In this document: positions 1 to 17,342 of the stretch, piece by piece
How the letters are laid out: every line of letters starts with the position of its first letter
Numbering within the stretch: the first letter of the stretch is position 1
NCBI GenBank assembly: GCA_013286465.1
Contig: JABDFR010000030.1
Span: forward strand, 1 to 32,371
Source: Acidobacteriota bacterium
GTDB taxonomy: Bacteria > Acidobacteriota > Terriglobia > Acidiferrales > UBA7541
DNA length: 32,371 nt
Direction of reading: 5' to 3'
Notes under the pieces: generated by a model
What the model saw: the letters and a program-made list of their open reading frames with translations, nothing else
The model's database searches: none
Told to the model about the DNA's origin: nothing
Made by a program: the position numbers and the translations under genes

Positions 1-1206
1 GTGTCCGCCGGTTCGCTACGCGCCGCTCTGCAATGCGCTTTCAGCAGTCTAAATCCAGAAACGCAATGTGAACCCGCTAGGATTTATCTCGAGGAATTTC
101 GATCGTTCAGTTCCAGCATCGCCTGGGATTTCAACCGACTCTACTGGCATCGCCTGAAAGACTGGGAACAAGCCACCGGTAAAAGCTACGAAGCGGCGCT
201 TCCAGGAGGCAAATCCGAAGCGCATGATCCCGGCGCCATCGCCGATTCCGTCGCCGATTTCTGGACTCTGCTCAAGGATCTCGAAGGCCAAAATCAGCTC
301 CCGCCGGAATTATTCATTCTCGAAATCGGCGTCGGCATGGGCACCCGCGCCGGCCTCTGGCTCGATCGTTTCCGCGCGCTCGACAAACAACGCGGCACGA
401 ATTTTTATCCCCGCATCCGTTTTTTGCTCGGCGACTACTCGCAAGCCACGCTAGATCGCTCGAGGCCGGCAGTACGAGAGCATCTCGAGCTATGCAGCTT
501 CATCGTTCTCAATGCGCTCGATCCCATCAAAACTCTCTCCTTCCTACGCCACAAAATTCTGCACATACATCTGACCAACGTCTACGACAACTTGCCCGAC
601 GAAGAATTAGTCCGCCGCGATGGCCGCATCTATTGGCTGCAAGTGCGCGCATATTTATCAGCCGCAGATGCAACGCGAATCGGCGCCGAGTGCGGCGTCC
701 CAGTTTCCGAACTGCCGAAGCTGATCAATCGCCTGCTCGAAATCGGCCCCGAATGTCTGCCGGAGCGAACGCAAGGAGTAAAGCTCTGGCAGGAAGTTTG
801 GAAAGCGGTGCGACTCGAGGAGCGCTTGGTGGACGCCGATTCGCTGCCGAATTCGTCTTATCCCGAAGGCCTCGATGCCTCAAATCTCGAAAACATGCTG
901 CGAGATGCTCCGAGCGATTTGCGATTCCACCTAAGCTCCGGCGCGCTCGAAAGTTTTCGCAACACGCTGCCTCTTCTACACCCGCGCGGCTATTTGCAAG
1001 TACAGGATATTTTCGTCACCAGCCTCGGCGACTATCGCATGGGCTTTCACGGCCCCGGCAAGCTCGATGGCTCGATTGTAAATTGGGTAAACGGCGTTCT
1101 GCTCCGCGAAGTAGCAGAGCGTTACGGCTATGATTTGCATTTCGCGCCGTTTCATTACCGGCCAGGTTCGCGAGCCTCGGTCCTCTACACGACGCGACGG
1201 GAGTAA
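1..1206 (+). CDS. SAM-dependent methyltransferase-like protein (5' end uncertain)
   Basis: The protein has a clear class I SAM-binding motif at residues 106-118 (ILEIGVGMGTRAG). The layout, a long N-terminal helical part followed by a Rossmann-like core and a C-terminal beta region, recalls the MidA-like (COG1565) methyltransferases. The methyl acceptor cannot be read from the sequence. The reading frame is open at the first base of the window. The GTG at position 1 is a possible start, but the gene may begin further upstream, so the N-terminus is not established. It ends four bases before a MetE-type gene that is followed one base later by a MetF-type gene, so the three probably form one transcript concerned with methyl-group transfer. 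The fold assignment is fairly safe. The specific role is unknown. Confidence 0.65.
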   Translation: MSAGSLRAALQCAFSSLNPETQCEPARIYLEEFRSFSSSIAWDFNRLYWHRLKDWEQATGKSYEAALPGGKSEAHDPGAIADSVADFWTLLKDLEGQNQLPPELFILEIGVGMGTRAGLWLDRFRALDKQRGTNFYPRIRFLLGDYSQATLDRSRPAVREHLELCSFIVLNALDPIKTLSFLRHKILHIHLTNVYDNLPDEELVRRDGRIYWLQVRAYLSAADATRIGAECGVPVSELPKLINRLLEIGPECLPERTQGVKLWQEVWKAVRLEERLVDADSLPNSSYPEGLDASNLENMLRDAPSDLRFHLSSGALESFRNTLPLLHPRGYLQVQDIFVTSLGDYRMGFHGPGKLDGSIVNWVNGVLLREVAERYGYDLHFAPFHYRPGSRASVLYTTRRE

Positions 1207-1209
1207 AGC

Positions 1210-2211
1210 ATGAACTTTCCCATCCTTCCCACAACAGTAGTTGGCAGCTACTCGATGCCCGGCTGGCTCGAACGCCTCAAGACCGAATATTTCGCCCGCC
1301 GCATCAGCCGCCACGATCTAGATGAAGTTCACGACGCGGTAACCAAAGCCGCCATCAAAGATCAAGAAGCCGCCGGTCTAGACATCATCACCGACGGCGA
1401 ACTCCGCCGCGACAACATGATCGACTACTTCGTAGAAAAACTTCCCGGCGTGCAAATCGATCGCTCCTCAAAAAAGTTTTACTACGATTTTTACGATTCC
1501 GAAGTGGTAGGGAAACTCCCCGCAGCTTCGCTAGGCCTGGTCGAAGATCTCCGTTTCCTGAAATCCTTCACCGAGCGCGAAGCAAAAGTCTGTGTAACCG
1601 GCCCGCACTCGCTAGTAAAACGCATTCGCAATAAGCATTACCAAAGCGAGGCAGCGTTCGCGGCCGACATAGCCCGCGTAATGAATCTAGAGCTAAAGGA
1701 ACTAGTAAAAGCCGGCGCCCGTTACATCCAAATCGACGAACCTTACTATTCCGGTTTCCCAGAAGACTTAGATTGGGGCGTCGAAGTGCTGAACACGCTC
1801 GTTGAAGGCGTCGAAGCAAAAACCGCAGTTCACATTTGTTACGGCAATCGCTACGGCAAACCATCCTGGGAAGGCAGCTACCGTTATCTATTCCCGCGCA
1901 TCCTCAAAGCCAAAGTCAAGCAACTCACTCTAGAATTCGCCCGGCGCGGCGGTGAAGATCTCGATCTGTTCCGCGAATTCGCCCCGCCGTTCGAGCTAGG
2001 CGTAGGAGTGATCGACGTAAAAACTCAAGCAGTAGAAACGCCTGAAGTAGTGGCGGAACGAATTCGCAAAGCCCTGGAAGTGATGCCGCCCGAAAAATTA
2101 TTCATCCTGCCCGATTGCGGCTGCTTTCATCTGCCGCGTCCCGTAGCCTTCGCAAAATTGCGCGCCATGGTAGAAGGCACGCGCCAAGTCCGAAAGGAAC
2201 TAAGAAGCTGA
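1210..2211 (+). CDS. Core MetE-type methyltransferase (cobalamin-independent methionine synthase C-terminal domain)
   Basis: The 333-residue protein corresponds to the catalytic C-terminal half of MetE and lacks the N-terminal half of the roughly 750-residue classical enzyme. The zinc and homocysteine-binding residues are visible: His208 and Cys210 (HICYGN), Glu242 (LTLEFAR) and Cys303 (PDCGC), with the IDEP motif at 175-178. Such short enzymes (core MetE, archaeal Mes proteins) transfer a methyl group to homocysteine. The donor may be a methyl-corrinoid or another carrier rather than methyltetrahydrofolate polyglutamate; this is known for relatives but not shown here. The start four bases after the previous stop, and the MetF-type gene one base after its own stop, place it in a methyl-transfer operon. 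Confidence 0.85.
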   Translation: MNFPILPTTVVGSYSMPGWLERLKTEYFARRISRHDLDEVHDAVTKAAIKDQEAAGLDIITDGELRRDNMIDYFVEKLPGVQIDRSSKKFYYDFYDSEVVGKLPAASLGLVEDLRFLKSFTEREAKVCVTGPHSLVKRIRNKHYQSEAAFAADIARVMNLELKELVKAGARYIQIDEPYYSGFPEDLDWGVEVLNTLVEGVEAKTAVHICYGNRYGKPSWEGSYRYLFPRILKAKVKQLTLEFARRGGEDLDLFREFAPPFELGVGVIDVKTQAVETPEVVAERIRKALEVMPPEKLFILPDCGCFHLPRPVAFAKLRAMVEGTRQVRKELRS

Positions 2212-2212
2212 A

Positions 2213-3820
2213 ATGCCCGCGGGAAATCCACTGCGCGATTCATTGACCGCCGGAAAATTCTGCTACGTGGTCGAACTTGTAGCCAGCCGGCTGACGCGCG
2301 AAGCCCGACTCCTAGAAGTAGCATCGCAGCTAGCGCAAGTTCCCGGCATAGTCGCGGGCAGCATCACCAGTTACGCCGGCGGCGCCATGGGCCGCGATCC
2401 AATTCGCGTGGGCACCGCAGCCCGCGCCCGCGGCCTCGTGCCAAACATTCACCTCACCTGCGTAAATCGCGATGTCCCCGCCGCACGCCGCGCACTCGAG
2501 GATCTTCACGCCCTCGGCATAGAGAATGTTCTCGCACTGAGCGGCGATTACCCCAAGACCTCCGCGAGCGAAGCGAAGCCGTCGCCGCAACAGCCAATCT
2601 TCGATCTAGATTCCGTCCAACTCGTCACGCTGATCGCGGAAATGCGCGCGAAAGGCCTGCCCTTCTGGATTTCCGTCGCCGTTTCGCCCTTCAAATACAC
2701 AGAAGCCGATTGCGCCTATCAATATCTAAAGCTAGAAAAGAAAATCGCCGCCGGCGCCGACTGCGCGATCACTCAACTCGGCTACGATGCAAAGAAATTC
2801 CGAGAACTAAAGCGTTACCTCGATGAGCGCAACTTGCGCACGCCATTACTCGGCAGCGTTTACGTCCTCCATGCCAAAGCCGCCGAAAAAATGTCGAAAG
2901 GCGAGCCCCCGGGATGCTGGGTTTCGCCGGAGCTGCTGGAGCAAATAAAAATTGAAACGCAATCAGCCGACAAGGGCATGGCCGCGCGACTCGAGCGCGC
3001 CGCGAGCATGGTCGCAATTCTGCGCGGCCTCGGCTATGCCGGCGCTTATATCGGCGGCGATCATCGCGCAGATCACGTCCGTTGGATCATCAAACGATCG
3101 GAAGCGCTCGCGCCAAAGTGGCAAGAACTCGCGGATCGTCTAGCTTTCGCGCCCAAAAGCGCATTCTATTTCTGCGATTCCGCGCTAGCGTCGTCGAAGA
3201 AGCCGAGCTTCGCGCCGTCAAGTAGCACGGCCACTCCGGGGGGTGCACCCATCGCGCGCCTGCTCGACACGCTCGGACGCATCTTCCCAGTCAACAAACC
3301 GGGCAAGCTCCGAGATTTCCTAACCACGATGTTCCGCTGGATCGACAAGCGCCCAAAACTTTCCCGCGGCGTAGAGCGCTTCGAATTCGCAATCAAGTCT
3401 CCACTATTCGGCTGCCAAGCCTGCGGCAATTGCGTCCTCGGCCACATGGAATACGTCTGCCCGCAAACCTGCCCCAAGGGAATGCGGAACGGCCCGTGCG
3501 GCGGCACGCTAAACGGCCGTTGCGAAGTGGTCGATAAGCCATGCGTCTGGGTGGAAGTTTACGCCCGCGCAAAATCCGAGAAGCGCATGGAAGATCTGAA
3601 AATTTACATACCGCCGCGCAACAAAAGCCTCGCCGGCACAAGTTCCTGGATCAATTATTTTCTAGCCCGCGACAGTCGCCCCGGCCATCCAAATTTCGAA
3701 TCCAGGGACGGGGGAGCGTCAGGACCAAGTACCACCAGCTCGTCGCGTGCACAAAGCGGAGCGAGCACGGAACCGCGCGCGCACGGAGACGGCGCGCTGA
3801 TTCATATTGATCACAAGTAG
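2213..3820 (+). CDS. metF: Methylenetetrahydrofolate reductase with C-terminal MetV-type cysteine-rich domain
   Basis: Residues 10-315 form the MTHFR TIM barrel, with the start-proximal Glu21 (usual catalytic position) and the ALSGD motif near 108-112. Residues 385-470 form a second domain with eight cysteines (401, 404, 407, 416, 420, 429, 437, 444) matching the MTHFR C-terminal or MetV family, which in acetogens is a separate subunit. At 535 residues it is much longer than E. coli MetF (about 296). It reduces 5,10-methylene-THF to 5-methyl-THF in the cytoplasm; the cysteine cluster suggests iron-sulfur and/or zinc binding and perhaps a ferredoxin-like electron path. The start lies one base after the MetE-type stop. 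The inter-domain linker (about 322-348) and the C-terminal tail (about 485-530) are Ser/Gly/Ala-rich low-complexity stretches. Confidence 0.9.
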   Translation: MPAGNPLRDSLTAGKFCYVVELVASRLTREARLLEVASQLAQVPGIVAGSITSYAGGAMGRDPIRVGTAARARGLVPNIHLTCVNRDVPAARRALEDLHALGIENVLALSGDYPKTSASEAKPSPQQPIFDLDSVQLVTLIAEMRAKGLPFWISVAVSPFKYTEADCAYQYLKLEKKIAAGADCAITQLGYDAKKFRELKRYLDERNLRTPLLGSVYVLHAKAAEKMSKGEPPGCWVSPELLEQIKIETQSADKGMAARLERAASMVAILRGLGYAGAYIGGDHRADHVRWIIKRSEALAPKWQELADRLAFAPKSAFYFCDSALASSKKPSFAPSSSTATPGGAPIARLLDTLGRIFPVNKPGKLRDFLTTMFRWIDKRPKLSRGVERFEFAIKSPLFGCQACGNCVLGHMEYVCPQTCPKGMRNGPCGGTLNGRCEVVDKPCVWVEVYARAKSEKRMEDLKIYIPPRNKSLAGTSSWINYFLARDSRPGHPNFESRDGGASGPSTTSSSRAQSGASTEPRAHGDGALIHIDHK

Positions 3821-4704: not shown

Positions 4705-5385
4705 ATGCCGAAACTAACCGCCAAACCGGAACCGCTCGAAGTAGATCTCGCCCACTCCGCGATCATCGTCGTCGATATGCAGAACGCCTTCGTAAGCAAA
4801 GGCGGCACTCTCGACATCGCCGGAATCGATTTGGCGGACGCTCCTCAAGTGGTTCGCAAAATTCGCGGAGTTCTCGACGCCGCGCGCGCAGCCGAAGTGC
4901 CCGTCATTTATCTGCAGATGGTTTACAAGCCGGACCTAAGCGATTCCGGCGGCGCCGCCTCGCCGAATTGCCGCAAAGAACTCGCGTTGCATTTGATGGA
5001 AGCCAAGCCGGAACTAAAAGGAAAGCTCCTGACGCAAGGCAGTTGGGATAGCGCGCTCGTCGATGAACTGGCCGCGAAGCCCGGCGATCTGGTAATCACC
5101 AAGACGCGTTATAGCGGCTTCGTAGGCACTACTCTCGATTCGCAATTGCGCGTCCGCGGCATACAATATCTTTTCTTCGTGGGAATCGCCGCGAACGTTT
5201 GCGTAGAATCAACGCTGCGTCATGCTTTTTTTCTCGATTACTGGCCCATTCTAGTTTCCGATAGCACCATGGCTGCCGGCGGACCAAGCGCCCTCGCCGC
5301 CACAATTTTTAATGTCGAATCATTTTTCGGCTGGACCGTAAATTCCGATGAGCTGAGCGCGTGCTTCGCAGCGCGAGGGGATTGA
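4705..5385 (+). CDS. Isochorismatase-family cysteine hydrolase, RutB-like
   Basis: The 226-residue protein shows the full catalytic triad of the cysteine hydrolase family: Asp24 (VVDMQNAF), Lys133 (TKTRYSGF) and Cys166 (ANVCVESTLR). Its overall pattern, including GSWD, the PGD turn, the RYSGF segment and a C-terminal FFGW, resembles E. coli RutB, the ureidoacrylate amidohydrolase of pyrimidine breakdown, as remembered. No other rut gene is present, so the natural substrate here may be a different carbamoyl or amide compound. The ATG fits the RutB N-terminus although only AGGG directly precedes it. It ends seven bases before the first carboxylase subunit gene, so it is very likely co-transcribed with the carboxylase. 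Confidence 0.85.
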   Translation: MPKLTAKPEPLEVDLAHSAIIVVDMQNAFVSKGGTLDIAGIDLADAPQVVRKIRGVLDAARAAEVPVIYLQMVYKPDLSDSGGAASPNCRKELALHLMEAKPELKGKLLTQGSWDSALVDELAAKPGDLVITKTRYSGFVGTTLDSQLRVRGIQYLFFVGIAANVCVESTLRHAFFLDYWPILVSDSTMAAGGPSALAATIFNVESFFGWTVNSDELSACFAARGD

Positions 5386-5391
5386 ACGAGC

Positions 5392-7395
5392 GTGTGGACT
5401 GCGGACATTGACGTCGGCGGCACGCTGACCGACGGCCTCTTCACCAGCGGAGACAAAATTGTCTCCGTAAAAGTGGATACCACTCCGCACGATTTAACCG
5501 TTTGCCTGTTCGATTGCCTCACGCAAGCAGCCACGAAGCTCGATTTCGCTGATGCCGTTGCATTTCTCGAAGAAGTAGATCTGATTCGCTGGTCCACTAC
5601 GATCACGTCAAACGTCCTCGCCGAACTTCGCGGTCCAAGAGTCGGTCTATTGATCACGCGCGGGCACGAATTGGATCTCTACGGCAGCGGGCGCAGTCCC
5701 GTCCTCGGCAAATTCCTGAATGATCGCGACGTGATCGGTATCACCGGCTCCTCCACCGAAACCGAAATCATGAATGCCGCGCGCTCGCTGCTAGAAACCG
5801 GCGTTCGCCGCATCTGCATCAGCCTGAAAGGCTCGCAGCAAAATCCCCAGTGCGAAATCGCCTTCAAGAAAATCATCGATCAGCAATATCCCGATCATTT
5901 TCTAGGCTCCGTTCCGGTTCTAGCCGGCAGCGATATCTCCCAGAGCCCAGACGATCGCACACGCACCTACTGCGCGCTCATCAACGCCTACACGCACGGC
6001 GCGCTAGCCGCCACGTTATTCAAAGCCGAAGACGAACTTCGCGTGGCATCAAAATATTCCGGCGCATTCCTAGTCAGCCATATCAACGGCGGCGTCGCAG
6101 GCATCGCGAAAACTAAAGCGATCGACACCATCGAATCCGGCCCCATCCTCGGTATTCTCGGCAGCGCCCACCTCGCGAAATCCTACGGCTTGAACGAAGT
6201 AGTCGCCATGGACGTAGGCGGCACAACGGCAAAAATCAGCGTCCTGCGCAACGGCGAGCCGATTTATCGCAAGCCCTCCGATTTATTCGGAAATCCGATC
6301 GAAGTCTCGCTCCCGTTTTTGCGTTCGATCGCGTTAGGCGGCGGAAGCGTGGTCAAGCCGCTAGCGGACTCGCAGCCGCCCTCAGTTCAACTCGGCCCGG
6401 AAAGCATGGGCTCGTTCCCCGGCCCCGCGTCTTACGGCCTCGGCGGAGACCAAGCCACGCTCACCGACGCGTTCGTCGCCGCCGGAATCATCAATCCACA
6501 ATATTTTCTAGGCGGATCGAAGCCCATCGACCTAGAGCTCGCACGGAAAACGATCGAATCGCTAGTCGCCAAGCCATTGAAGGTAAGTCTCGACGACGCC
6601 TGCAAAATCATCATCGATCGCGCCTTCGCAGCAGTAGCGAAAATGATCGCCGATGCGCAAAAAGAATTGGGCGCGGATCTTTCAGCACACACTCTTTTCG
6701 CTTATGGCGGTAATGGCGGTCTTTTCGGTGCCGGAGTAGCAGCCAACGCCGGAATAAAGCGCGCCCTGGTATTCTCGCTCGGCCCAGTTTTCAGCGCGTT
6801 CGGTTCCTCCGTGTCCGATATCTGCCACGTCTACGAGCGCCCGCTTTCCGAATCAGCAATCACCGAAGCAGGATTAACCCGTATCCGCCGAGCTCTCGAA
6901 GAAATCAAAGCCGAATGTGCGAAAGACTTGCTCGGCGAAGGAATTCGTCCCGAGGGTCTGGCTTACTCGCTCGAGTTTGAGATTGCCGGCGAAAAAGGTT
7001 CGTCGCCCGTCGCTTTCACAGAAGACGCGCTCGCTAGCGAAGCCCAACTGCAGTCCGCGATTGCGAAAGCACGCGGCACGGGCAATGGATTAAGCGCGAA
7101 GCCCATCAGCCTCGAGCTGCTGCGCGTCCGCGCGAAAAAACCCATGTCGAAGCCGCACTTCGTCGAGCGCGCCCGCACCAGTCCCGATCCAGCTCACGCG
7201 CGCATAGGCACAAGAAAAATCGCTTGGGGCAGCTGCACCGGCGAAGCGCAAATTTACCGCTGGGAATCCCTGCAGCCGGGAAATCGCATCGCAGGCTGCG
7301 CGGTCATCGAAGGCGAAAACACCACCTATCTCGTTCCCGATGGCTGGAATCTAGAAGTAGACGGTTTCGGAAACGCGTCGCTCACGCGCTCATAG
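5392..7395 (+). CDS. apcA: Acetophenone carboxylase-like subunit ApcA (hydantoinase A family, about 70 kDa)
   Basis: This 667-residue protein belongs to the hydantoinase A/acetone carboxylase beta superfamily. It carries the two ASKHA-type phosphate-binding motifs, DIDVGGTLTD at residues 5-14 and MDVGGTTAKIS near 277, and the GGGS loop further on. Where hydantoinases read H/S-GTT-ATN-LLERKG it reads STTITSNVLAELRG, so it is the more divergent of the two A-type proteins here. In Aromatoleum the first Apc subunit is a 70 kDa protein of this family; size and position agree. The complex would carboxylate an aryl methyl ketone using ATP and bicarbonate, without biotin. Start GTG at 5392 directly precedes the first motif. 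Acetone carboxylase or N-methylhydantoinase are alternatives made less likely by the neighbours. Confidence 0.8.
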   Translation: MWTADIDVGGTLTDGLFTSGDKIVSVKVDTTPHDLTVCLFDCLTQAATKLDFADAVAFLEEVDLIRWSTTITSNVLAELRGPRVGLLITRGHELDLYGSGRSPVLGKFLNDRDVIGITGSSTETEIMNAARSLLETGVRRICISLKGSQQNPQCEIAFKKIIDQQYPDHFLGSVPVLAGSDISQSPDDRTRTYCALINAYTHGALAATLFKAEDELRVASKYSGAFLVSHINGGVAGIAKTKAIDTIESGPILGILGSAHLAKSYGLNEVVAMDVGGTTAKISVLRNGEPIYRKPSDLFGNPIEVSLPFLRSIALGGGSVVKPLADSQPPSVQLGPESMGSFPGPASYGLGGDQATLTDAFVAAGIINPQYFLGGSKPIDLELARKTIESLVAKPLKVSLDDACKIIIDRAFAAVAKMIADAQKELGADLSAHTLFAYGGNGGLFGAGVAANAGIKRALVFSLGPVFSAFGSSVSDICHVYERPLSESAITEAGLTRIRRALEEIKAECAKDLLGEGIRPEGLAYSLEFEIAGEKGSSPVAFTEDALASEAQLQSAIAKARGTGNGLSAKPISLELLRVRAKKPMSKPHFVERARTSPDPAHARIGTRKIAWGSCTGEAQIYRWESLQPGNRIAGCAVIEGENTTYLVPDGWNLEVDGFGNASLTRS

Positions 7396-7440: not shown

Positions 7441-7824
7441 ATGCAAAACGCACCAAATCGAATTCGAGTCACCGAATACCTCGACGTCGACATCGATCAA
7501 GAAAAATGGCTTTGCAATCGCTGCAATCGTGATCTCGGCTCGGCCCGCGAAAACTATAAAAAAGGCTGCCTCGTCTACGATCGCGACCCGCGCGAAATTC
7601 ATCCGCCCATCGTCACCGGCGCATTCAGTTTCTCCCCCGATCCACTCTGGGTCCGCATCGTAGAATTTTATTGCCCCGGCTGCGGCACCCAAGTCGAAAC
7701 CGAATATCTCCCGCCCGGCCATCCCATCACGCGCGACATCGAAATCGATCTCGACGCACTCAAAGCCCGCCTGCAAAACGGCGAATTCACCATTCGCGCC
7801 CAGCGCCTCGAGGTCCCCGAATGA
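7441..7824 (+). CDS. apcB: Acetophenone carboxylase-like small subunit ApcB (acetone carboxylase gamma family)
   Basis: A 127-residue protein of the acetone carboxylase gamma family, a small zinc-binding subunit found only in ketone carboxylases. Two CxxC pairs, Cys25/Cys28 (CNRC) and Cys78/Cys81 (CPGC), form a probable zinc ribbon, and Cys43 is an extra cysteine. Size (about 15 kDa) and place, between the two A-type subunits, match Apc2 of Aromatoleum. GAGAGG at 7431-7436, four bases before the ATG, supports the start. The stop overlaps the next start in ATGA. This gene is the strongest argument that the flanking hydantoinase-type proteins form a carboxylase and not a hydantoin or oxoproline hydrolase. 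Confidence 0.88.
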   Translation: MQNAPNRIRVTEYLDVDIDQEKWLCNRCNRDLGSARENYKKGCLVYDRDPREIHPPIVTGAFSFSPDPLWVRIVEFYCPGCGTQVETEYLPPGHPITRDIEIDLDALKARLQNGEFTIRAQRLEVPE

Positions 7825-9941
7825 ATTCGATCGACATCGACGTCGGCGGCACCTTCACCGATCTAGTCCTGCATTACGACGGCAAAGCCCTGATCAAAAA
7901 GGTGCCCACCACGCCCTACGATCTCTCCGTCTGTTTCTCGCGCGTAATCGAAGAAGGCGCCACCGCGGTAGGCAAAAAAATGGACGAACTGCTCCCGTCC
8001 ATCGACATGATTCGCTATTCCACCACTATCGCCATGAATCGCCTCATCGAGCGCAAAGGCCCGCGCCTAGCCCTAATCACCACCGAAGGTCACGAAGACG
8101 TAGTCCTGATCGGCCGCGGCGCGCAATGGATCGATGGCACACGCGTACAAGAGCGCAGAAATCTAGCCATTCAAAAGAAACCCGACCCGTTAATTCCGCG
8201 CGACATGATCGTCGGCGTAAAAGAACGCGTAGATTCCCGCGGCCGCGTAATCCGCCCGGTAGACGAAAATGATGTCCGCGAAAAAATCCGCTATCTCGTA
8301 AATCGCGGCGCCCGCGGCATCGTAATTTCATTCCTCTGGGGCTTTCTAAATCCAATCCACGAGCGCCGCGTAAAAGAAATCATCCGCGACGAATACAAAG
8401 AATTCCACATCGGCTATCTGCCAGTAGTTCTAGCAGGCCAGGTAGTAGGAAAACTCGGAGAATACGAACGCACCATGGCCGCCATCCTCGACGCCTACTT
8501 GCAGCGCTCCATGCAAATCGAACTCTCCGCCATGTGGGACAAACTCCGCGAGCGCGGCTACACCAAGCCTCTCCTAATGATTCAAAGCTCCGGCGGAATC
8601 GCAGAAGTTTTCCGCACCACCGCCAGCCGCACTTTCAACAGCGGCCCAGTCTCAGGCCTGATGGGCGCGCATCACGTAGCCCAATCGCTCGGCTATCAAA
8701 ATGTAGTAATGACCGACATGGGCGGCACCAGTTTCGACGTAGGCCTAGTCGTGAAAGACAGCGTCCGCAGCTACGATTTCCGCCCGATCATCGATCGCTG
8801 GATGGTCGGCATCACAATGATCAAGACGCTCTCCATCGGCGCAGGTGGCGGCTCGATCGCATCAGTAAATAAACTTCTGCAAAATCGAGTGCAAGTAGGC
8901 CCACGCAGCGCCGGCTCCATGCCCGGCCCCGCCTGCTTCAGCCTAGGCGGCACCGATCCCACCGTCACCGATGCCGACGTAGTCCTCGGCTATATCAATC
9001 CCGAGTATTACTACGGCGGCCGCATGCGCCTCGACAAAAATCGCGCGATTCAAGCCATCCGCGAAAAAATCGCTAAGCCCCTAGGAGTAGGCATCGAAGA
9101 AGCCGCCTCCATAATCCGCAAGATCGTAAACGGAAATATGGCCTCAGCAATCATGAAAGAAGTTCACCTCCGCGGCTACAGCCCGGAAGATTTCATCCTA
9201 TTCGTAGGCGGCGGCGCAGGCGCAACCCACGCCGAAGGCTTCAAAGGCGACATTCGCAAAGCCGTAACATTTCCATTCTCCCCAGTCTTCTGCGCCTTCG
9301 GCTCCTCCACCATGGACATCATGCACGTCTACGAAGTCTCCAAAAAAATCACGCTGATGTCCCCAGGCACCCAGCAACTCTCCGAAGAATTCGCCACCTT
9401 CAACACCACGGTAGAAGGTCTAATCGAACAAGCCCGCAAAGATTTGCTAGGCGACGGCCTAGATCCGCAAAAAGCCGCCTATGTTCTCGAGCTAGACATG
9501 CTCTACGGCGGCCAATTTCACGTGAAGCGAGCCCTCTCCCCGCGCCTCTCGCTACATTCCACCGAAGACGTCCGCGCGATCTGCGACGCCTTCAACAAAG
9601 AATTCAGCGAAGCCTTCAGCCCCTTCGTCGTAAATCCAGAAGGCGGAATCTTCATCGAAAGCTTCATCCTGAAAGCAATCGTCTCCACTCCAAAAGTAGA
9701 AATGCCGAAACTGCCGCTAGAAGGCACCGATCCATCGGCAGCAAGAAAAGGCGAGCGCTCGGTCTATTGGCCCGAACTAAAAGATTTTCGCCCAACGCCA
9801 ATCTTCACCCAAGAATCCCTGCGCCCAGGAAACGTAATCCAGGGCCCAGCAGTAATCGAAGGCGAATACACAACAATCGTAGTCCCCCCATCAATGCGTT
9901 TTTCCATCGACGAGCGCAGCCTGGGAATTCTCGAATCGTGA
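7821..9941 (+). CDS. apcC: Acetophenone carboxylase-like subunit ApcC (hydantoinase A family)
   Basis: A 706-residue hydantoinase A-family protein (about 77 kDa) with DIDVGGTFTDL at residues 4-14, the STTIAMNRLIERKGPR element, TDMGGTSFDVG near 295, and a GAGGGS loop. It is closer to the family consensus than the paralogue at 5392-7395. The ATG at 7821 was chosen over an upstream in-frame codon at 7671 because it overlaps the stop of the small subunit in ATGA and because the extra 50 residues are Arg/Ser-rich and read through the small-subunit gene. It would be the second ATP-using A-type subunit of the carboxylase; the Aromatoleum counterpart is larger (87 kDa). Confidence 0.85.
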   Translation: MNSIDIDVGGTFTDLVLHYDGKALIKKVPTTPYDLSVCFSRVIEEGATAVGKKMDELLPSIDMIRYSTTIAMNRLIERKGPRLALITTEGHEDVVLIGRGAQWIDGTRVQERRNLAIQKKPDPLIPRDMIVGVKERVDSRGRVIRPVDENDVREKIRYLVNRGARGIVISFLWGFLNPIHERRVKEIIRDEYKEFHIGYLPVVLAGQVVGKLGEYERTMAAILDAYLQRSMQIELSAMWDKLRERGYTKPLLMIQSSGGIAEVFRTTASRTFNSGPVSGLMGAHHVAQSLGYQNVVMTDMGGTSFDVGLVVKDSVRSYDFRPIIDRWMVGITMIKTLSIGAGGGSIASVNKLLQNRVQVGPRSAGSMPGPACFSLGGTDPTVTDADVVLGYINPEYYYGGRMRLDKNRAIQAIREKIAKPLGVGIEEAASIIRKIVNGNMASAIMKEVHLRGYSPEDFILFVGGGAGATHAEGFKGDIRKAVTFPFSPVFCAFGSSTMDIMHVYEVSKKITLMSPGTQQLSEEFATFNTTVEGLIEQARKDLLGDGLDPQKAAYVLELDMLYGGQFHVKRALSPRLSLHSTEDVRAICDAFNKEFSEAFSPFVVNPEGGIFIESFILKAIVSTPKVEMPKLPLEGTDPSAARKGERSVYWPELKDFRPTPIFTQESLRPGNVIQGPAVIEGEYTTIVVPPSMRFSIDERSLGILES

Positions 9942-9965: not shown

Positions 9966-12026
9966 ATGCCGATCCCCACAACAAAGGAAAAGTTGGCCTG
10001 GCTAAAGCCCGCCCCAGCCACCCAACACGAAAAAGAATGCGCCGCAAAAGTAGCCCAAGGCGATTACGAAATCGGCATCCAAATCACCAACGACATCCTC
10101 GACGAAGCCATGGAAGTTTTCGTGCGCGCCTCGCGCAGCTATTTCGGCGTCTCCGGCGATTCCATGGTCGCCATCTTCACCGCCAACGGCGATCTAATCA
10201 ACGCCAGTTGCGGCACCTACCTACACGCGATCATCCAACCGATCGTAATCAAATTCATCCACAAATATTTTTCAGAAAATCCAGGAATCAAAGACGGCGA
10301 CATCTGGTACACCAACGACGCCCTCTACGGCGGCATCCACAACCCAGATCAAGTAGCTCTAATGCCGGTTTTCCACCAAGGAAAACTAATCGCCTGGGCC
10401 TCCGCCGCGTTACACACCACAGAAACCGGCGCCATCGAGCCAGGCGGCATGCCCGTAAGCGCAAAATCTCGTTTCGAAGAAGGCCTAAATCTCCCGCCCA
10501 TCAAAATCGGCGAAAATTTCGAAATCAGAAATGATTTCCTGGAATTTTATTCCGTCTATGGCCTGCGCGCACCGGCTATGTTCATCTCCGATCTACGCGC
10601 CCGCTGCACCACCGCCGATCGCGTCCGCATCCGCCTGATCGAACTAGCCGACAAACGCGGATCCGATTTCGTAGTAGGCCTCCTACGCAAAATGTGCGAC
10701 GTAGCCGAAGAAGGCGCCAGGAAAAAAATCCGCGCCCTACCCGATGGCACTTATAAATCGGTAGTTTTCAATGACGCCATAGGCTGGACGCCAGCGCTAG
10801 TGCGCGCCTGCCACCTGACGCTAACAAAAAAAGGCGACAACCTGATTTTCGATTTCGAAGGCACCTCCCCGGAAAATCCATCTTCCTATAATGTCCACCC
10901 GCAAGCAGTAGTAGGCCACATCGCAAATTTCTTTTACGAATATTTATTCCACGATCTACCGATCTGCAGCACCACTTTCGCGAGCATAGATTTCAAATTT
11001 CCAGAAGGCATAATCCTGAATCCCGGCAAAATGGCCGCCACCAGCTGCTGCGTCTTCATCGGCATGCAAGCCCGCTGCGCCACCCACAACGTCTTCGCCA
11101 AAATGGCCTTCTCCACCGAAGGCCTCTGGCGCCAAATCGCCGCGGCCCCAGGCAGCCAACACACCTCGCAAATCTGCGCCGGCCTCTCGCAATGGAAGCT
11201 GGCGGTAGCCGACGTTCTCTCTTTCTCGCTAAACTCCATGGGCCAAGGCGGTCGCGCCTCCACCGATGGCATGGACGCCTACGGTTTCGCCTGGTGCGCC
11301 TTCGGCCGCGCCCCAGATTCCGAGCAAGTAGAAAGCGAACTCCCCATCACGGTAACTCTCTCCCAACATTGGAAAGATTCCTGCGGCCACGGTCTCCATC
11401 GAGGCGGCTCCGGCGGCGTGCAACACTGGATGATTCATAAAATGCCGGATCTCGTGTCCATGTGCATGGGCAACGGCAGCAAAGTCCCGCTAGGCCAACC
11501 CCTTTTCGGCGGCTACGCCTCAGCTCCGATTCCAGGCATCAGCATTCGCAAAGCAGATTTGATGGCGCGAATGCAGCGAGGCGATGCGACAGTAACTCTA
11601 GATAACCGCGCCATCCTCGAAGAAACTTCAATCCACGGCAATTGGAATTACGAACTAGTAGCCCGTACTCCGAAAGTTTATGACGAGGGCGATCTGCTAT
11701 TCGGATTCAGCGGCGGAGGCCCCGGCTACGGCGATCCGCTCGAGCGCGATCCCGAAGAACTGCTGGAAGATCTGAAGAAAAATATAATTTCCGACTGGAC
11801 CGCCAAAAGCATCTACAAAATCGCTTACGATCCCGAAAAACACAAAGTGGACATCGAAAAAACCAAGCAACAAAGAGACGAAGAGCGCCGCGCCCGCCTC
11901 ACCCGCGGAAAAACTTTCGAAGAATTCGAAAAAGCCTGGAACCAAACCAGCCCGCCGCCGGAAATTCTGCAATGGTACGGCCGCTGGCCCGACGCGAAAT
12001 CTCTCGGCCCAATTTTCCGTCCGTAA
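9966..12026 (+). CDS. apcD: Acetophenone carboxylase-like subunit ApcD (hydantoinase B family, about 75 kDa)
   Basis: A 686-residue hydantoinase B/acetone carboxylase alpha-family protein. Typical elements are the NDALYGGIHNPD segment near residue 118, PGGMP near 160, FEEGLNLPP near 169, and a C-terminal FGFSGGGPGYGDPLERD block near 577 that is a hallmark of HyuB proteins. Family members bind a metal and form the carboxylation site facing the A-type subunits. Size and order agree with the 75 kDa Apc subunit. AAGGAG at 9956-9961 sits four bases before the ATG. It follows the ApcC stop by 24 bases and is followed after three bases by the ApcE-like gene. Confidence 0.87.
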   Translation: MPIPTTKEKLAWLKPAPATQHEKECAAKVAQGDYEIGIQITNDILDEAMEVFVRASRSYFGVSGDSMVAIFTANGDLINASCGTYLHAIIQPIVIKFIHKYFSENPGIKDGDIWYTNDALYGGIHNPDQVALMPVFHQGKLIAWASAALHTTETGAIEPGGMPVSAKSRFEEGLNLPPIKIGENFEIRNDFLEFYSVYGLRAPAMFISDLRARCTTADRVRIRLIELADKRGSDFVVGLLRKMCDVAEEGARKKIRALPDGTYKSVVFNDAIGWTPALVRACHLTLTKKGDNLIFDFEGTSPENPSSYNVHPQAVVGHIANFFYEYLFHDLPICSTTFASIDFKFPEGIILNPGKMAATSCCVFIGMQARCATHNVFAKMAFSTEGLWRQIAAAPGSQHTSQICAGLSQWKLAVADVLSFSLNSMGQGGRASTDGMDAYGFAWCAFGRAPDSEQVESELPITVTLSQHWKDSCGHGLHRGGSGGVQHWMIHKMPDLVSMCMGNGSKVPLGQPLFGGYASAPIPGISIRKADLMARMQRGDATVTLDNRAILEETSIHGNWNYELVARTPKVYDEGDLLFGFSGGGPGYGDPLERDPEELLEDLKKNIISDWTAKSIYKIAYDPEKHKVDIEKTKQQRDEERRARLTRGKTFEEFEKAWNQTSPPPEILQWYGRWPDAKSLGPIFRP

Positions 12027-12029
12027 AAA

Positions 12030-13040
12030 ATGATGAAGGATTTCAACCCGCGCCAAGCAGTTCGAGGGCTCCTGCAATCGATCGCTCCCGCGCGCCCTTT
12101 ATTTCTGCCCATCGTCTTCTCTCTAGGCGCGCGCATCGAAAATGTCTCGCTCCGCAATTTCCTAACCAATCCCACTAAAATTTCCAACGCCCTACGCCAG
12201 ATTCGCACCCACCTCCGCAGCGATGGCATCACCTGTTATTTCGATCCATATTTAGAAGCCGAAGCCCTCGGCGGCGTCTTAGATTGGGAGTCGGACGCCC
12301 GCCGCCCCTCGCTGCGCTGGCCGCAACCATCGCACGACGGCGAATTACCCGAAGGCCTCTGCGCCCCAGATGAAACGGCGAAACGAGGACGTGTTCCCAT
12401 CGCAGTAGAAGTCATCCGTCGTCTCAAGCCGCTTGTTCGCGATGATTTCTTACTCGTCGCCGGCGTCACCGGACCGCTCACACTGGCCGCGCAAATCGCG
12501 CATATCGAAACTGGTGAATCTGCCCGCAAGCTCTCGCCGCCGGATTCAGCGCTAAGCCTCGCCGCCGATGTCACTCCAGTGGTAGCCCGTGCCCTCGTCG
12601 AAGCCGGCGCGAATGTAATACTAATTCGCGAGGAACTTCTCCCATCTTCAGCCGACGCTCTAGCAGATTGGTCCTCGCGCCTCGCGTCGACAATTAATAT
12701 CGTGCGCTTCTATGAAGCTCTTCCAGTTTTGCTGCTGAGCCCCGCGCGACCCGCAGCAAACGAAATTGAAAACATCATCCGCGAGCCGTGGGACGCCGTC
12801 GTTTGCGCGCCAGTCGAGGCCGCCGCCGGCTTCGTCACGGAACGCCGCGTAGCAGGATACGGAATCTCGCTGCCATCATCAGCATTCGAGCCCGATCAAT
12901 CCAACAACGCGCAACTCACAACAAATCTTCGAAAAATAATTCCAGAATTCCACCCGGCGCTAGTCACCACAACCTCCGACCTCCCAACCACCGCCGATCT
13001 AAAATATCTAAATGCCATCGCCGAGGAAGTGAATTGTTGA
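12030..13040 (+). CDS. apcE: ApcE-like accessory subunit with uroporphyrinogen decarboxylase-like fold
   Basis: A 336-residue protein in the position and size class (34 kDa in Aromatoleum) of the fifth, separately purifying Apc subunit that is needed for activity. Its sequence reads like the URO-D/cobalamin-methyltransferase TIM barrel: RPLFLPIVFSLGAR near residue 22, DPYLEAEALG near 72, VAGVTGPLTLAAQ at 143-155, and VEAGANVILIREE near 190. The arginine- and aspartate-rich active site of true URO-D is not convincing, so it is not a haem enzyme. The ATG at 12030 follows the ApcD stop by three bases; a second ATG at 12033 is equally possible. Its stop overlaps the next start. The Apc assignment rests on context and size; the fold assignment on motifs only. 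Confidence 0.68.
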   Translation: MMKDFNPRQAVRGLLQSIAPARPLFLPIVFSLGARIENVSLRNFLTNPTKISNALRQIRTHLRSDGITCYFDPYLEAEALGGVLDWESDARRPSLRWPQPSHDGELPEGLCAPDETAKRGRVPIAVEVIRRLKPLVRDDFLLVAGVTGPLTLAAQIAHIETGESARKLSPPDSALSLAADVTPVVARALVEAGANVILIREELLPSSADALADWSSRLASTINIVRFYEALPVLLLSPARPAANEIENIIREPWDAVVCAPVEAAAGFVTERRVAGYGISLPSSAFEPDQSNNAQLTTNLRKIIPEFHPALVTTTSDLPTTADLKYLNAIAEEVNC

Positions 13041-14914
13041 GCGCGCGAAATTCACCATCGGCACGCTCCGCAGTCCGCCAAGTTCGCATGCGAACTTCAG
13101 GCGCCAGGCTCGAGCGCCGCCCCGACGGCACTTTGCTCGTCACGCCCGACGAACAACTCCGCGAATATCCGAAAGTGCTGACCGATCGCGTCGCACACTG
13201 GGCCCGCGAATTTCCCGAGCGAGTCTGCATCGCCAAGCGCGACGTCAAAGGCGAATGGCGCCGCCTCACCTACGCCCAAATCTGGCAATCGATTCGCGCG
13301 GTAGGCGAAGCCCTACTCAGCTTCGGCCTTTCCGCCGACCGCCCTGTCATGATTCTTTCCGAAAATGATCTCGAGCAATTTATTCTGACGCTCGCCGGTC
13401 AGCACGTAGGAATTCCAGTCGCGCCAATTTCTCCGCCGTATTCGCTAGTCTCCAAAGATCTCAGCAGATTGCGTCACATCGAGAATTTACTGACTCCAGG
13501 CCTAATTTTCGCAGCGGATGGAAATCGTTACGAACGAGCGCTCGCGGCAATCGCGAAAGAGGGAACTCCGATTGTCGTCACGCATTCGCCGCCCCGCGGC
13601 AAACCGACGATTTTATTTTCAGAGCTGCTGAACACAACATCTTCGTCATCAGTCGACGCCGCGCACGAGCGCATCAATCCCGACGACGTCGCAAAATTTC
13701 TTTTCACCTCCGGCTCAACAGCCATGCCCAAAGGCGTCATCAACACGCACCGCATGATCTGCAGCAACTTACAAATGATCAATCAGGTTTTCGGTTTTCT
13801 CGAAGAGGAGCCGCCAGTCCTGGTGGACTGGCTTCCGTGGAATCACACCTTCGGCGGTAACCACAACACAGGAATCTCGCTCTACAACGGCGGCACTTTC
13901 TACATCGACGACGGCAGGCCCGGCCTGGATTCCTTTCGCGAAACACTTCGCAACCTTCGCGAAATCTCCACGACCGTCTTCTTCAACGTCCCGAAAGCCT
14001 ATGAGGGACTGCTGCCCGCGCTGCGCTCCGATCGCGAACTGCGCGAAACTTTCTTTCGCCGCCTGAAACTTCTTTTCTATGCAGCCGCCGGCCTTTCTCA
14101 GCCAATGTGGGACGCCTATCGCTCGCTCGCGCAAGAAGCCTGCGGCGAACGCATCATCATGGTCACTGGCCTAGGCGCCACAGAAACCGCCCCCATGGCT
14201 ATTCAAACTAGCTGGGAAACCGATCACGCCGGCGTAATCGGCATTCCCGTTCCCGGCGTCGAGCTGAAATTAGTCCCGCGCGATGAAAAACTCGAAGCCC
14301 GCGTCCGCGGTCCAAATATCACTCCGGGATATTGGCGCCAACCGGAACTCACGGAAAAAGTTTTCGACGAAGAAGGCTTCTATTCCTTCGGCGACGCCGT
14401 TCGTTTCATCGATCCGAACGACGTCAACAAAGGCTTCCTCTTCGACGGCCGCTTCTCCGAAGATTTCAAGCTAGCCAGCGGCACCTGGGTCAGCGTCGGC
14501 CCATTGCGCGCCCGAATTCTCAGCCATTTCGCACCGCTGGTCCGCGATGTAGTAGTCGCAGGCCACGATCGCGATGATGTCGGCCTGCTGATCTTTGCCG
14601 ACCTGCGCGCCTGCTGCGAACTCTTCGACGCCGATCAATCGAATCTCCCCGCCGCAGAAATTCTCGAACACGATCTCGTGCGCGCCAGATTTAGGGACTT
14701 AATCAAAAGTTTCGCTGAGCAATCCACAGGCAGCTCCACGCGCATCGCCCGCGCAGTCCTCGTCGAAGAGCCGCCGTCCCTCGACGCCGGAGAAGTCACC
14801 GACAAAGGCTCGCTCAATCAACGCGTGGTCCTCGAACGGCGCGCCGCCCTCGTCGAAGAGTTATACTCATCTATAGAAGCATCGCCGAGAATTCTGCGAC
14901 TCAGGGAGAAATAG
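13037..14914 (+). CDS. Aroylacetate/feruloyl-CoA synthetase-type AMP-forming ligase (Bal-like)
   Basis: An AMP-forming acyl-CoA synthetase of about 625 residues in the feruloyl-CoA synthase group. The adenylation motif FTSGSTAMPKG is near residue 221, TGLGATETAP near 376, a GYWRQPELT block near 434, and the family-typical C-terminus DAGEVTDKGSLNQR carries the catalytic lysine. In Aromatoleum the gene after apcABCDE encodes benzoylacetate-CoA ligase, which activates the carboxylase product. The start is taken as TTG 13037, overlapping the upstream stop (TTGA), with GAGGAA at 13023-13028 eight bases before. ATG 13088 is an alternative but has no ribosome-binding site and removes family N-terminal residues. 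Feruloyl-CoA or another aryl acid is the competing substrate. Confidence 0.85.
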   Translation: MSARNSPSARSAVRQVRMRTSGARLERRPDGTLLVTPDEQLREYPKVLTDRVAHWAREFPERVCIAKRDVKGEWRRLTYAQIWQSIRAVGEALLSFGLSADRPVMILSENDLEQFILTLAGQHVGIPVAPISPPYSLVSKDLSRLRHIENLLTPGLIFAADGNRYERALAAIAKEGTPIVVTHSPPRGKPTILFSELLNTTSSSSVDAAHERINPDDVAKFLFTSGSTAMPKGVINTHRMICSNLQMINQVFGFLEEEPPVLVDWLPWNHTFGGNHNTGISLYNGGTFYIDDGRPGLDSFRETLRNLREISTTVFFNVPKAYEGLLPALRSDRELRETFFRRLKLLFYAAAGLSQPMWDAYRSLAQEACGERIIMVTGLGATETAPMAIQTSWETDHAGVIGIPVPGVELKLVPRDEKLEARVRGPNITPGYWRQPELTEKVFDEEGFYSFGDAVRFIDPNDVNKGFLFDGRFSEDFKLASGTWVSVGPLRARILSHFAPLVRDVVVAGHDRDDVGLLIFADLRACCELFDADQSNLPAAEILEHDLVRARFRDLIKSFAEQSTGSSTRIARAVLVEEPPSLDAGEVTDKGSLNQRVVLERRAALVEELYSSIEASPRILRLREK

Positions 14915-14916
14915 CG

Positions 14917-16161
14917 ATGGAAACTCGCGCTGGCGGCACATTCGTCGCCTACAACGACATCTGGTTGCTCGACGGCGTTCGCACTCCGTTCGTCGATTAC
15001 AACACCGCACTCGGCACCGTCTCGCCAATCGATCTAGGCATCAAAGCCGCCCGCGCCGTTTTCGAGCGCTCCGGAATTCCTGCGACGGACGTGGGCGCAA
15101 CGATCGCCGGCAGCGTAGCGCAAGCCAGCTTCGACGCCTACATGCTCCCCCGCCACATCGGCCTCTATTCCGGCGTCCCCATCGATCGCCCAGCATTACT
15201 CGTGCAAAGAGTCTGCGGCACCGGCGTAGAAGCCATAGGCCAAGCCGCCGACGCAATCACTCTAGGAAAAATCGATCTCGGGCTATGCGTAGGCGCCGAG
15301 TCCATGAGCCGCAATCCCGTAGCAGCCTTCACCCACCGCGGCGGTTTCCGCATGGGGCAAGTCGAATTCAAAGATTTTCTCTGGGAAGCCCTCGTAGACA
15401 CGGCCCCCGGCGTTTCGATGGGCCAAACCGCCGAACTCACCGCGCAAAAATATAAAATCACCCGCGAAGATGCCGATCGCTTCGCCGAATCCAGTTTCGC
15501 CCGCGCCCTAGCCGCACAAAAAGCCTGCTTCCTCTCCGGCGAAATCACTCCGCTAACAAATGAAAAATTCGAACTCGAAGGCTACAAGCCGCGCGGCATT
15601 CGCCTAGCCAAAGGCCCCGAAAAGCTCGACCTCGACACGCACATCCGCCCGTCCACTTACGAAGTCCTCTCCAAAATTCCCCCAGCCTTCGGTGGCGTAC
15701 AAACCGGCGGAAATAGCTCGGCAATCGTAGACGGCGCAGCCGCCGCACTAGTAGGCTCCGGCGCCTACGCAAAATCCCGCAACAAGCAGCCGCTCGCCCG
15801 CATCGTCGCGGTAGCCACAGTCGGCGTTCCACCAGAAATCATGGCCATCGCACCGGCCCCGGCCATCCGCAAACTGCTCGAAGGCACCGGCATGAAACTA
15901 GAATCGATCGATCGCTTCGAAATCAACGAAGCCTTCGCCGCCCAAACGATCGGCGTCGAGCGCGAACTAAATCTCGACCGCGCCAAGTTAAATGTAAACG
16001 GCGGCGCCATCGCCATCGGCCATCCGCTAGCCGCGACGGGCATTCGTCTTGCCGTAACGCTAGCCCGCGAACTCCGCCGCTCGAAACTCCACTACGGCAT
16101 AGCCTCAGCCTGCATAGGTGGCGGGCAGGGAATCGCCATGCTCCTAGAAAATGCCGCCTAA
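14917..16161 (+). CDS. Thiolase (acetyl-CoA C-acyltransferase), probable aroylacetyl-CoA thiolase
   Basis: A 414-residue type II thiolase with active-site Cys100 (QRVCGTG), the NEAFAAQ motif near 338, the GGAIAIGHPLAATG block carrying the catalytic histidine, and the second cysteine in ASACIGGGQG near 400. It would cleave a 3-ketoacyl-CoA with CoA; in this setting benzoylacetyl-CoA or a hydroxylated analogue, giving acetyl-CoA and an aroyl-CoA. AGGGAGA at 14903-14909 precedes the ATG, which lies two bases after the ligase stop. The N-terminus has about 12 residues before the usual first strand, as in many family members. A biosynthetic acetoacetyl-CoA thiolase cannot be excluded from sequence alone. 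Confidence 0.9.
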   Translation: METRAGGTFVAYNDIWLLDGVRTPFVDYNTALGTVSPIDLGIKAARAVFERSGIPATDVGATIAGSVAQASFDAYMLPRHIGLYSGVPIDRPALLVQRVCGTGVEAIGQAADAITLGKIDLGLCVGAESMSRNPVAAFTHRGGFRMGQVEFKDFLWEALVDTAPGVSMGQTAELTAQKYKITREDADRFAESSFARALAAQKACFLSGEITPLTNEKFELEGYKPRGIRLAKGPEKLDLDTHIRPSTYEVLSKIPPAFGGVQTGGNSSAIVDGAAAALVGSGAYAKSRNKQPLARIVAVATVGVPPEIMAIAPAPAIRKLLEGTGMKLESIDRFEINEAFAAQTIGVERELNLDRAKLNVNGGAIAIGHPLAATGIRLAVTLARELRRSKLHYGIASACIGGGQGIAMLLENAA

Positions 16162-16170
16162 ACTCGCCCC

Positions 16171-16584
16171 ATGCTGATCCACCGCAAAAAGATCCAAGTC
16201 GAGTGGGGCGATTGCGATCCCGGCGGCATCGTCTATTTTCCGCGCTATTTCGAATACTGCGACATCTGCACCAACGCCCTATTCGTCCACGCCGGCCTGC
16301 CCAAACCAAAAATGCTACGAACGTACAAAATCGCAGGCATCCCCATAGTAGATGTCCACGGAAGATTCATGATCCCCTCCGAATATCCCGACACGCTGGA
16401 AGTAGCATCGTCAATCTCCGAATGGGGCCGCAGCAGCTTCACAGTCCAGCACAAAATCTATAAGGGCAAGAATTTAGCCGCCGAAGTAATCGAAAAGCGA
16501 GTCTGGGTAACGCGCATCCCAGGCACCCGCTCGCGTTTCAAAGGCGAGCCAATCCCAGGAAAAGTAAAATCCCGCTTCAAGTAG
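16171..16584 (+). CDS. 4-Hydroxybenzoyl-CoA thioesterase-family protein
   Basis: A 137-residue hot-dog fold thioesterase. The N-terminal EWGDCDPGGIVYFPRY (residues 11-26) closely follows the Pseudomonas CBS3 4-hydroxybenzoyl-CoA thioesterase pattern, and Asp16 aligns with its catalytic Asp17. Conserved GIPIVDVHGRF and EWGRSSF segments follow. It would hydrolyse the aroyl-CoA released by the preceding thiolase to the free aromatic acid. The gene begins nine bases after the thiolase stop and lacks a clear Shine-Dalgarno sequence, so it may depend on coupling. Its TAG stop coincides with the first bases (GTAG) of an intergenic repeat at 16581. YbgC-like acyl-CoA thioesterase is the alternative family member. 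Confidence 0.85.
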   Translation: MLIHRKKIQVEWGDCDPGGIVYFPRYFEYCDICTNALFVHAGLPKPKMLRTYKIAGIPIVDVHGRFMIPSEYPDTLEVASSISEWGRSSFTVQHKIYKGKNLAAEVIEKRVWVTRIPGTRSRFKGEPIPGKVKSRFK

Positions 16585-16644
16585 CACCGTCCCCGTGCCG
16601 CTGGCGTCCCTGCCCGCTCTTTTCGAGCGCGAGAGTCGCCGGGG
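16581..16644. repeat. GTAGC-type intergenic repeat, diverged copy
   Basis: The stretch begins GTAGCACCGTCCCCGTGCCG and continues with CTGGCGTCCCTGCCCGC. It shares the GTAGC head and the (C/T)GG(C/T)GTCCC(T/C)GCC core with copies at 21706-21740 and 24714-24748. It fills the start of the 257-base gap between the thioesterase and the dioxygenase genes. The rest of that gap (to 16841) contains GC-rich sequence including a GCCGG/CCGGC-rich part near 16742 and shows no gene I can support. Confidence 0.5.
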
Positions 16645-16841
16645 ACTTCCAAGTTGGACGAAGCGCGTTACTTACGATGGGCGAAGCGGTAGGATCTCTC
16701 AATCCGCGAGATGCCAGCTCGGGCCGTAATTACGCGAAAGAGCCGGCAGAGGCGCCGGCGTTACGAACACCACCGCCCACTAGCGCATCTCCCCAATTTC
16801 GTGTAGAAATCTACCAATCCACAGGACCACGGGAGGAACGC

Positions 16842-17342
16842 ATGTCTACACTCGACACCACCAGCAGCCTATATCAAACGATCAAAGAATACGGCCGCCC
16901 CGATTGCCATATCTCCGCCAGCGAAGCAGAATCCCCCTGGGTCCCCTTCGTAGAAAATGTTTTCATCCGCCACTTGGCCTTCGACGTCCGCGCCAGCGCC
17001 TTCGCCAATATTCTCTGGGTGAAAAAGAATGGAGTTCTAGGCCGCCATCGCCATCGCGGCCCGGTCATGGCCTGCACACTAGAAGGAAGCTGGCGCTATC
17101 TCGAATACGATTGGGTCTCCCGCGCCGGCGATTACGTCCACGAAAGCCCCGGCGTAATCCACACTCTAGTCTCGGATGATCCCAACGGCATGAAAACATT
17201 CTTCTGGCTAAATGGCTCGCTAGAATTTTACGACGAGCAAGATAATCTGCTGCAAACGCTAGATGTCTTCTGGATGATCGATCACTATCTAACGCACTGC
17301 CGCCAACACAACCTGAAAATCAACGAAAAGCTTTTCGTCTAA
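16842..17342 (+). CDS. 2,4'-Dihydroxyacetophenone dioxygenase-like cupin
   Basis: A 166-residue cupin. The metal-binding histidines are His69 and His71 (GRHRHRG) and His107 (GVIHTLV), a three-His arrangement as in 2,4'-dihydroxyacetophenone dioxygenase. The middle part LEGSWRYLEYDW and the HESPG turn are typical of that family and of ChrR-like cupins. The known enzyme (about 177 residues) cleaves the C-C bond next to the ketone of 2,4'-dihydroxyacetophenone to 4-hydroxybenzoate and formate, with non-haem iron and O2. The ATG at 16842 has GGGAGG at 16831-16836; the 55 in-frame residues upstream are low-complexity and lack family sequence. It stands 257 bases after the ketone carboxylase cluster in the same direction. 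Substrate and metal are inferred. Confidence 0.78.
   Translation: MSTLDTTSSLYQTIKEYGRPDCHISASEAESPWVPFVENVFIRHLAFDVRASAFANILWVKKNGVLGRHRHRGPVMACTLEGSWRYLEYDWVSRAGDYVHESPGVIHTLVSDDPNGMKTFFWLNGSLEFYDEQDNLLQTLDVFWMIDHYLTHCRQHNLKINEKLFV

Follow-up and report, generated by a model that had tools for sequence, protein, structure and literature searches.

What is a gene for a small cupin doing at the end of an Apc-type carboxylase cluster? The question is raised by a contig of an uncultured acidobacterium, analysed here over 32,371 nucleotides (this whole stretch is called the window). The cupin gene occupies positions 16842–17342 of the forward strand, as an open reading frame of 166 codons that starts with ATG and is preceded by a GGAGG ribosome-binding-like site (16832–16836). 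The preliminary description had recognised in it the histidine pattern of 2,4'-dihydroxyacetophenone dioxygenase (DAD), and the reading frame and an alignment confirm this: the first cupin motif, R-H-R-H (17046–17054), contains His69 (17046–17048) and His71 (17052–17054), and an IHTLV motif provides His107 (17160–17162). The gene lies, as described, on the same strand as the thioesterase gene and exactly 257 bases beyond its end at 16584.

The cupin is a real gene, beyond a chance match, on several lines of evidence. It matches Pfam Cupin_7 (2.3e-11; the label of this family is 'ChrR Cupin-like domain') and, in a phmmer search of the PDB, has DAD as its top match (9.2e-24). There are six orthologues, the window copy included, which are at least 75% identical over their full length and share the same start methionine. 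Finally, the substitutions relative to the congener G001 number 29, 20 and 89 at the first, second and third codon positions, the third being dominant (dN approximately 0.16, dS saturated). A longer mechanical reading frame, starting at 16677 and adding 55 residues, is supported by none of the orthologues.

The genes upstream, all on the forward strand, encode ApcA-like (5392–7395), ApcB-like (small subunit, 7441–7824), ApcC-like (7821–9941) and ApcD-like (9966–12026) carboxylase subunits, an ApcE-like protein of URO-D fold (12030–13040), a PRK12582-type acyl-CoA ligase (13037–14914), an acetyl-CoA C-acyltransferase or thiolase (14917–16161) and a 4HBT-fold acyl-CoA thioesterase (16171–16584). 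ApcA to ApcD are thus all present in one cluster, with NCBIfam scores of 670, 199, 1092 and 893 bits, respectively. These are strong matches, yet every one is under the strict equivalog cut-off, and the substrate therefore need not be acetophenone itself. The Apc arm probably acts on 4-hydroxyacetophenone-type ketones. The arrangement resembles apcABCDE-bal of Aromatoleum aromaticum EbN1 in its strong matches to the ApcA–D models and in the ApcE-like gene and CoA ligase that follow, and differs from it in that all the subunits score below the equivalog cut-offs, and in the addition of a thiolase and a thioesterase within the cluster, to which sister clusters add pobA.

Two features ahead of the carboxylase are worth recording. 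In the window, and likewise in eight or more sister clusters, ApcA is immediately preceded by a RutB-like hydrolase of isochorismatase fold (4705–5385, forward strand). Further upstream (1–3820) are a 401-residue reading frame with no Pfam match, a protein with a MetE-like catalytic domain, and MTHFR with a DUF5981 tail; the first two of these also lie ahead of ApcA in G099 (locus L063). This group of genes might indicate methyl transfer from methoxylated aromatics.

The gap of 257 bases between thioesterase and cupin (16585–16841) lacks the pobA gene that is found at this place in G001 and in genus g7. A search of the gap for a pobA remnant found no trace, a scan of it gave no terminator-like site, and its sole promoter-like site is at chance level. 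Across these 257 bases the cupin may or may not be co-transcribed with the thioesterase.

The sister clusters are informative about where the Apc arm leads. pobA directly follows the thioesterase in five of them, which supports the earlier proposal that 4-hydroxybenzoate is the end product of the Apc arm. In G001 and in G007 (genus g7) the thioesterase, pobA and cupin genes come one after another, separated by 33–102 bases, so that the cupin lies inside an apc-thioesterase-pobA run in two genera; in G019, G006 and G086 thioesterase and pobA occur with no visible cupin, the G019 cluster stopping at a contig edge. G007, G032, G096 and G097 have pcaGH in the vicinity of the cupin, and G001 has them in the vicinity of the apc cluster. 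The genome of the window itself has its pobA on a separate contig (C87), and a search of this genome, which is 66% complete, found no pcaH. The pobA gene of C87 is convergent to a fragment (L055:3-389) that resembles a formate dehydrogenase or NuoG-type subunit.

A survey of the pairing of Apc with the cupin had been suggested in the preliminary description, and its outcome is mixed. In the window the cupin stands beside a complete apc-ligase-thiolase-thioesterase set. Among the 89 genomes of the family, ApcD occurs in 19, a cupin orthologue in 6 and both in 5; that is, five of the six genomes with the cupin have Apc, and 14 of the 19 with Apc have no cupin. The pairing is thus partial; for the co-occurrence of the two within the family, Fisher's test gives p = 0.0014, with relatedness not corrected for. 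At a strict cut-off, Apc was found in none of the 395 other genomes sampled across the phylum, and the search of plasmids gave a single archaeal match (42%), which is uninformative.

We now consider the nature of the cupin. Its predicted structure is confident (pLDDT 93.8), and the closest structures in the PDB are 5bpx and 4p9g, both of DAD from Alcaligenes sp. 4HAP, with TM scores of 0.78–0.85. Next are 3ebr, an RmlC-like cupin from Ralstonia eutropha (TM 0.82–0.86) that is approximately 30% identical and falls outside both the DAD clade and that of the window in the tree, and then acetylacetone-dioxygenase-like cupins (3bal, TM 0.71–0.79). The iron in DAD is held by His76, His78 and His114 (PMC4219425). 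The window residues His69, His71 and His107 align with these and are invariant in 39 of 39 members of its clade, as are the equivalents of Tyr93 and Glu108 (window Tyr86 and Glu101). Equivalents of Phe43 and Phe129 are also present, the proteins are of similar length, and DAD and the cupin share a linkage to the use of 4-hydroxybenzoate. In the broad sense, therefore, the window cupin belongs to the DAD-type cupin superfamily, as judged by sequence and predicted fold over the full domain.

It is less close to DAD than the preliminary description assumed. In a tree of 103 relatives the true DADs form one clade (support 100/100) and the window cupin belongs to a sister clade (98/91), which is 31–38% identical to them and has members in at least four phyla (Acidobacteriota, Actinomycetota, Bacillota and Pseudomonadota). 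The two clades also differ in the pocket. In the model of Keegan and colleagues, the phenol group of the DAD substrate is held by Trp61 and Asp63 (PMC4219425); in the window these residues are Phe54 and Asn56, and Ser49 is replaced by Ile42. Across the sister clade Ser49 becomes Ile in 37 of 39 members, Asp63 becomes Asn in 38 of 39, Trp61 is Tyr, Ala or Phe, and Trp137 is Phe in all 39, with His96 also substituted, while the true DADs retain Trp61, Asp63 and Ser49 in eight of eight cases. Tyr153 and Met156 of DAD were left out of all arguments, as two alignments of the C-terminal helix conflict. The same authors noted that weaker homologues of DAD may use other substrates (PMC4219425). As a family assignment, a true DAD is rejected on the clade and the pocket residues. 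This leaves the possibility of a functional DAD with a diverged pocket, converting 2,4'-dihydroxyacetophenone to 4-hydroxybenzoate and formate. Such an activity would agree with the shared fold and iron site, with the retained Tyr93 and Glu108 equivalents, with the linkage to pobA and pca genes, and with the RefSeq name of one clade member ('2,4'-dihydroxyacetophenone dioxygenase family protein'); but given the separate clade, the four pocket substitutions and the occurrence of true DADs alongside members of this clade, described below, we regard it as rather unlikely.

The Pfam label invites a different reading, that the protein is a non-enzymatic, regulatory cupin like ChrR, or else a catabolic gene functionally unrelated to its neighbours, as the partial pairing with Apc could also suggest. 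ChrR carries an N-terminal zinc-binding domain, and the 166 residues of the window protein align with DAD almost end to end, leaving little space for one. ChrR structures superpose badly on the model (TM no higher than 0.55, rmsd at least 6.5); the window protein has no NCBIfam match, and the clade members score 12.9–17 bits against a ChrR cut-off of 124.5. On these scores and the fold comparison we reject an anti-sigma factor of the ChrR type, which the preliminary description had named as a function that would contradict its reading. The linkage to aromatic catabolism recurs, and we consider this reading as a whole very improbable.

The genomic surroundings of the clade elsewhere bear on its function. 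True DADs are found near clade members in seven alphaproteobacterial loci, of which six come from a contig scan and the seventh is on a plasmid of Novosphingobium. These loci also carry SDR and Zn-ADH genes, in most cases together with genes for a TonB receptor and an AraC regulator. The recurrent locus (seen at L091, L095, L098, L084, L087 and L152) comprises a TonB receptor, a true DAD, usually a glyoxalase-fold protein, the cupin, an SDR, a Zn-ADH and mostly an AraC regulator, and is likely to be devoted to aryl-ketone catabolism. Because the two proteins are kept side by side, gene order argues that they have different jobs, and they are probably not interchangeable. Among more distant acidobacteria, the cupin of locus L073 lies in a pca operon, immediately ahead of pcaH, pcaG and genes for a pcaB-like lyase and a pcaD/carboxymuconolactone-decarboxylase fusion, and that of L074, L076, L078 and L079 adjoins benzoylformate decarboxylase. 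SDR, Zn-ADH and regulators of the aromatic XylR_N or AraC type are other neighbours of the clade. In uncultured Actinomycetota (L088, L090, L102) the cupin comes after genes with transketolase-type E1 beta domains, similar to acetoin or 2-oxoacid dehydrogenases. Apc is close by in just two of the 32 clade loci of the contig scan. This last count weighs against an oxidative shunt in which the cupin would attack 4-hydroxybenzoylacetate, a different 1,3-dicarbonyl or some other intermediate of the Apc arm and so bypass ligase and thiolase: most members of the clade have no Apc nearby, making an Apc-specific substrate unlikely. The position of the cupin within the run of apc, thioesterase and pobA genes in two genera, and the presence of acetylacetone dioxygenase (3bal) among the closer folds, speak for a shunt, but DAD is nearer in both sequence and fold, and a shunt seems distinctly doubtful.

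The preliminary description went on to propose a system with two modes, in which the Apc arm would supply 4-hydroxybenzoate at low oxygen and a 'ring-side' dioxygenase would supply the same acid at high oxygen. The chemistry does not fit well. DAD cuts the side chain, and requires an alpha-hydroxyketone; it does not take 4-hydroxyacetophenone directly (PMC4219425). DAD-type chemistry would thus offer no second route for 4-hydroxyacetophenone unless this were hydroxylated first. Nor is Apc confined to anaerobic life, since A. aromaticum runs it both aerobically and anaerobically (PMC4729919). An anaerobic route would retain the CoA ester, which the thioesterase discards, and where pobA is the next gene, as in five sister clusters, the Apc product is committed to oxygen-dependent steps; the pcaGH of relatives need oxygen as well. 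Terminal oxidase genes were found in 15 of the 15 genomes tested, including all those with the cupin, and a search of the cupin-bearing genomes, several of which are incomplete, gave no benzoyl-CoA-reductase-type (HGD-D) gene.

Paired HGD-D genes do occur in four members of the same family that have Apc and no cupin (G006, G018, G086 and G107). In G086, the one examined (L156), they match the BcrB and BcrC models below cut-off and lie beside a BadH-like dehydrogenase. Some Apc-bearing relatives without the cupin may therefore degrade aromatics anaerobically, and in G006 and G086, where Apc, pobA and benzoyl-CoA-reductase-like genes occur together, two fates for the CoA ester are conceivable. 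An inverse association of the cupin with benzoyl-CoA reductase (0 of 5 against 4 of 9) is not significant (p = 0.22). The adjacency of the Apc and cupin genes also speaks for alternate use at low and high oxygen; we give that proposal very little credence, and as stated it is probably not the case. The Apc arm appears to end in oxygen-dependent breakdown of 4-hydroxybenzoate and protocatechuate, and the locus seems to be a common funnel, not a means of switching between oxic and anoxic life.

On the basis of these observations, we hypothesise, with moderate confidence, that this member of the sister clade to DAD works as a mononuclear Fe(II) dioxygenase and is a second feeder into an aerobic trunk that it shares with the Apc arm. 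The apc-ligase-thiolase-thioesterase set would feed this trunk from 4-hydroxyacetophenone-type ketones, and the trunk itself would run from 4-hydroxybenzoate through protocatechuate to beta-ketoadipate. Acting on the side chain of an aryl ketone with a neighbouring oxygen function, the cupin would cleave the C–C bond beside the carbonyl, so that a short acid is released together with an aromatic one, and it may be regulated jointly with Apc. The fold, the iron site, the clade, and the gene order and linkage are results of the analysis; the catalysis, the substrate class and the joint regulation are proposals. Counting against the hypothesis are the place of pobA on another contig of the host genome, in which (at 66% completeness) no pcaH was found, and the fact that only a minority of Apc genomes have the cupin. 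Its substrate would be an aryl ketone, probably an alpha-hydroxyketone; this class is inferred from the kinship with DAD and from the nearby dehydrogenases, and is the weakest step in the argument. More tentatively, the clade could represent a new specificity among side-chain dioxygenases, for example one that converts lignin C3 aryl ketols (2,3-dihydroxy-1-aryl-propanones) into glycolate and an aromatic acid, and that is partnered with true DAD in sphingomonads and with an aerobic Apc/pobA route in Acidobacteria.

A close functional parallel is the Hpe pathway of Rhodococcus rhodochrous GD02, which acts on acetovanillone and 4-hydroxyacetophenone. It too carboxylates aryl methyl ketones aerobically, and leads to 4-hydroxybenzoate or vanillate and on to the protocatechuate pathway; it does so using a kinase, a biotin-dependent carboxylase and a phosphatase, whereas the window encodes an ATP-dependent Apc-type carboxylase. 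In 2022 its authors were aware of no further case of carboxylation in the aerobic breakdown of aromatics (PMC9618137), to which the aerobic use of Apc by A. aromaticum is a counterpoint (PMC4729919).

No member of the cupin clade with an established biochemical function was found. The database name 'DAD family' is probably a misfit for a clade that extends over at least four phyla, and its repeated pairing with true DADs points to a further step in the breakdown of aryl ketones. The host of the window is an uncultured soil acidobacterium with Apc genes for using plant-derived aromatic ketones by addition of CO2, and the route from Apc through thioesterase to pobA would constitute, in such uncultured soil acidobacteria, a distinct aerobic solution for lignin-derived acetophenones.
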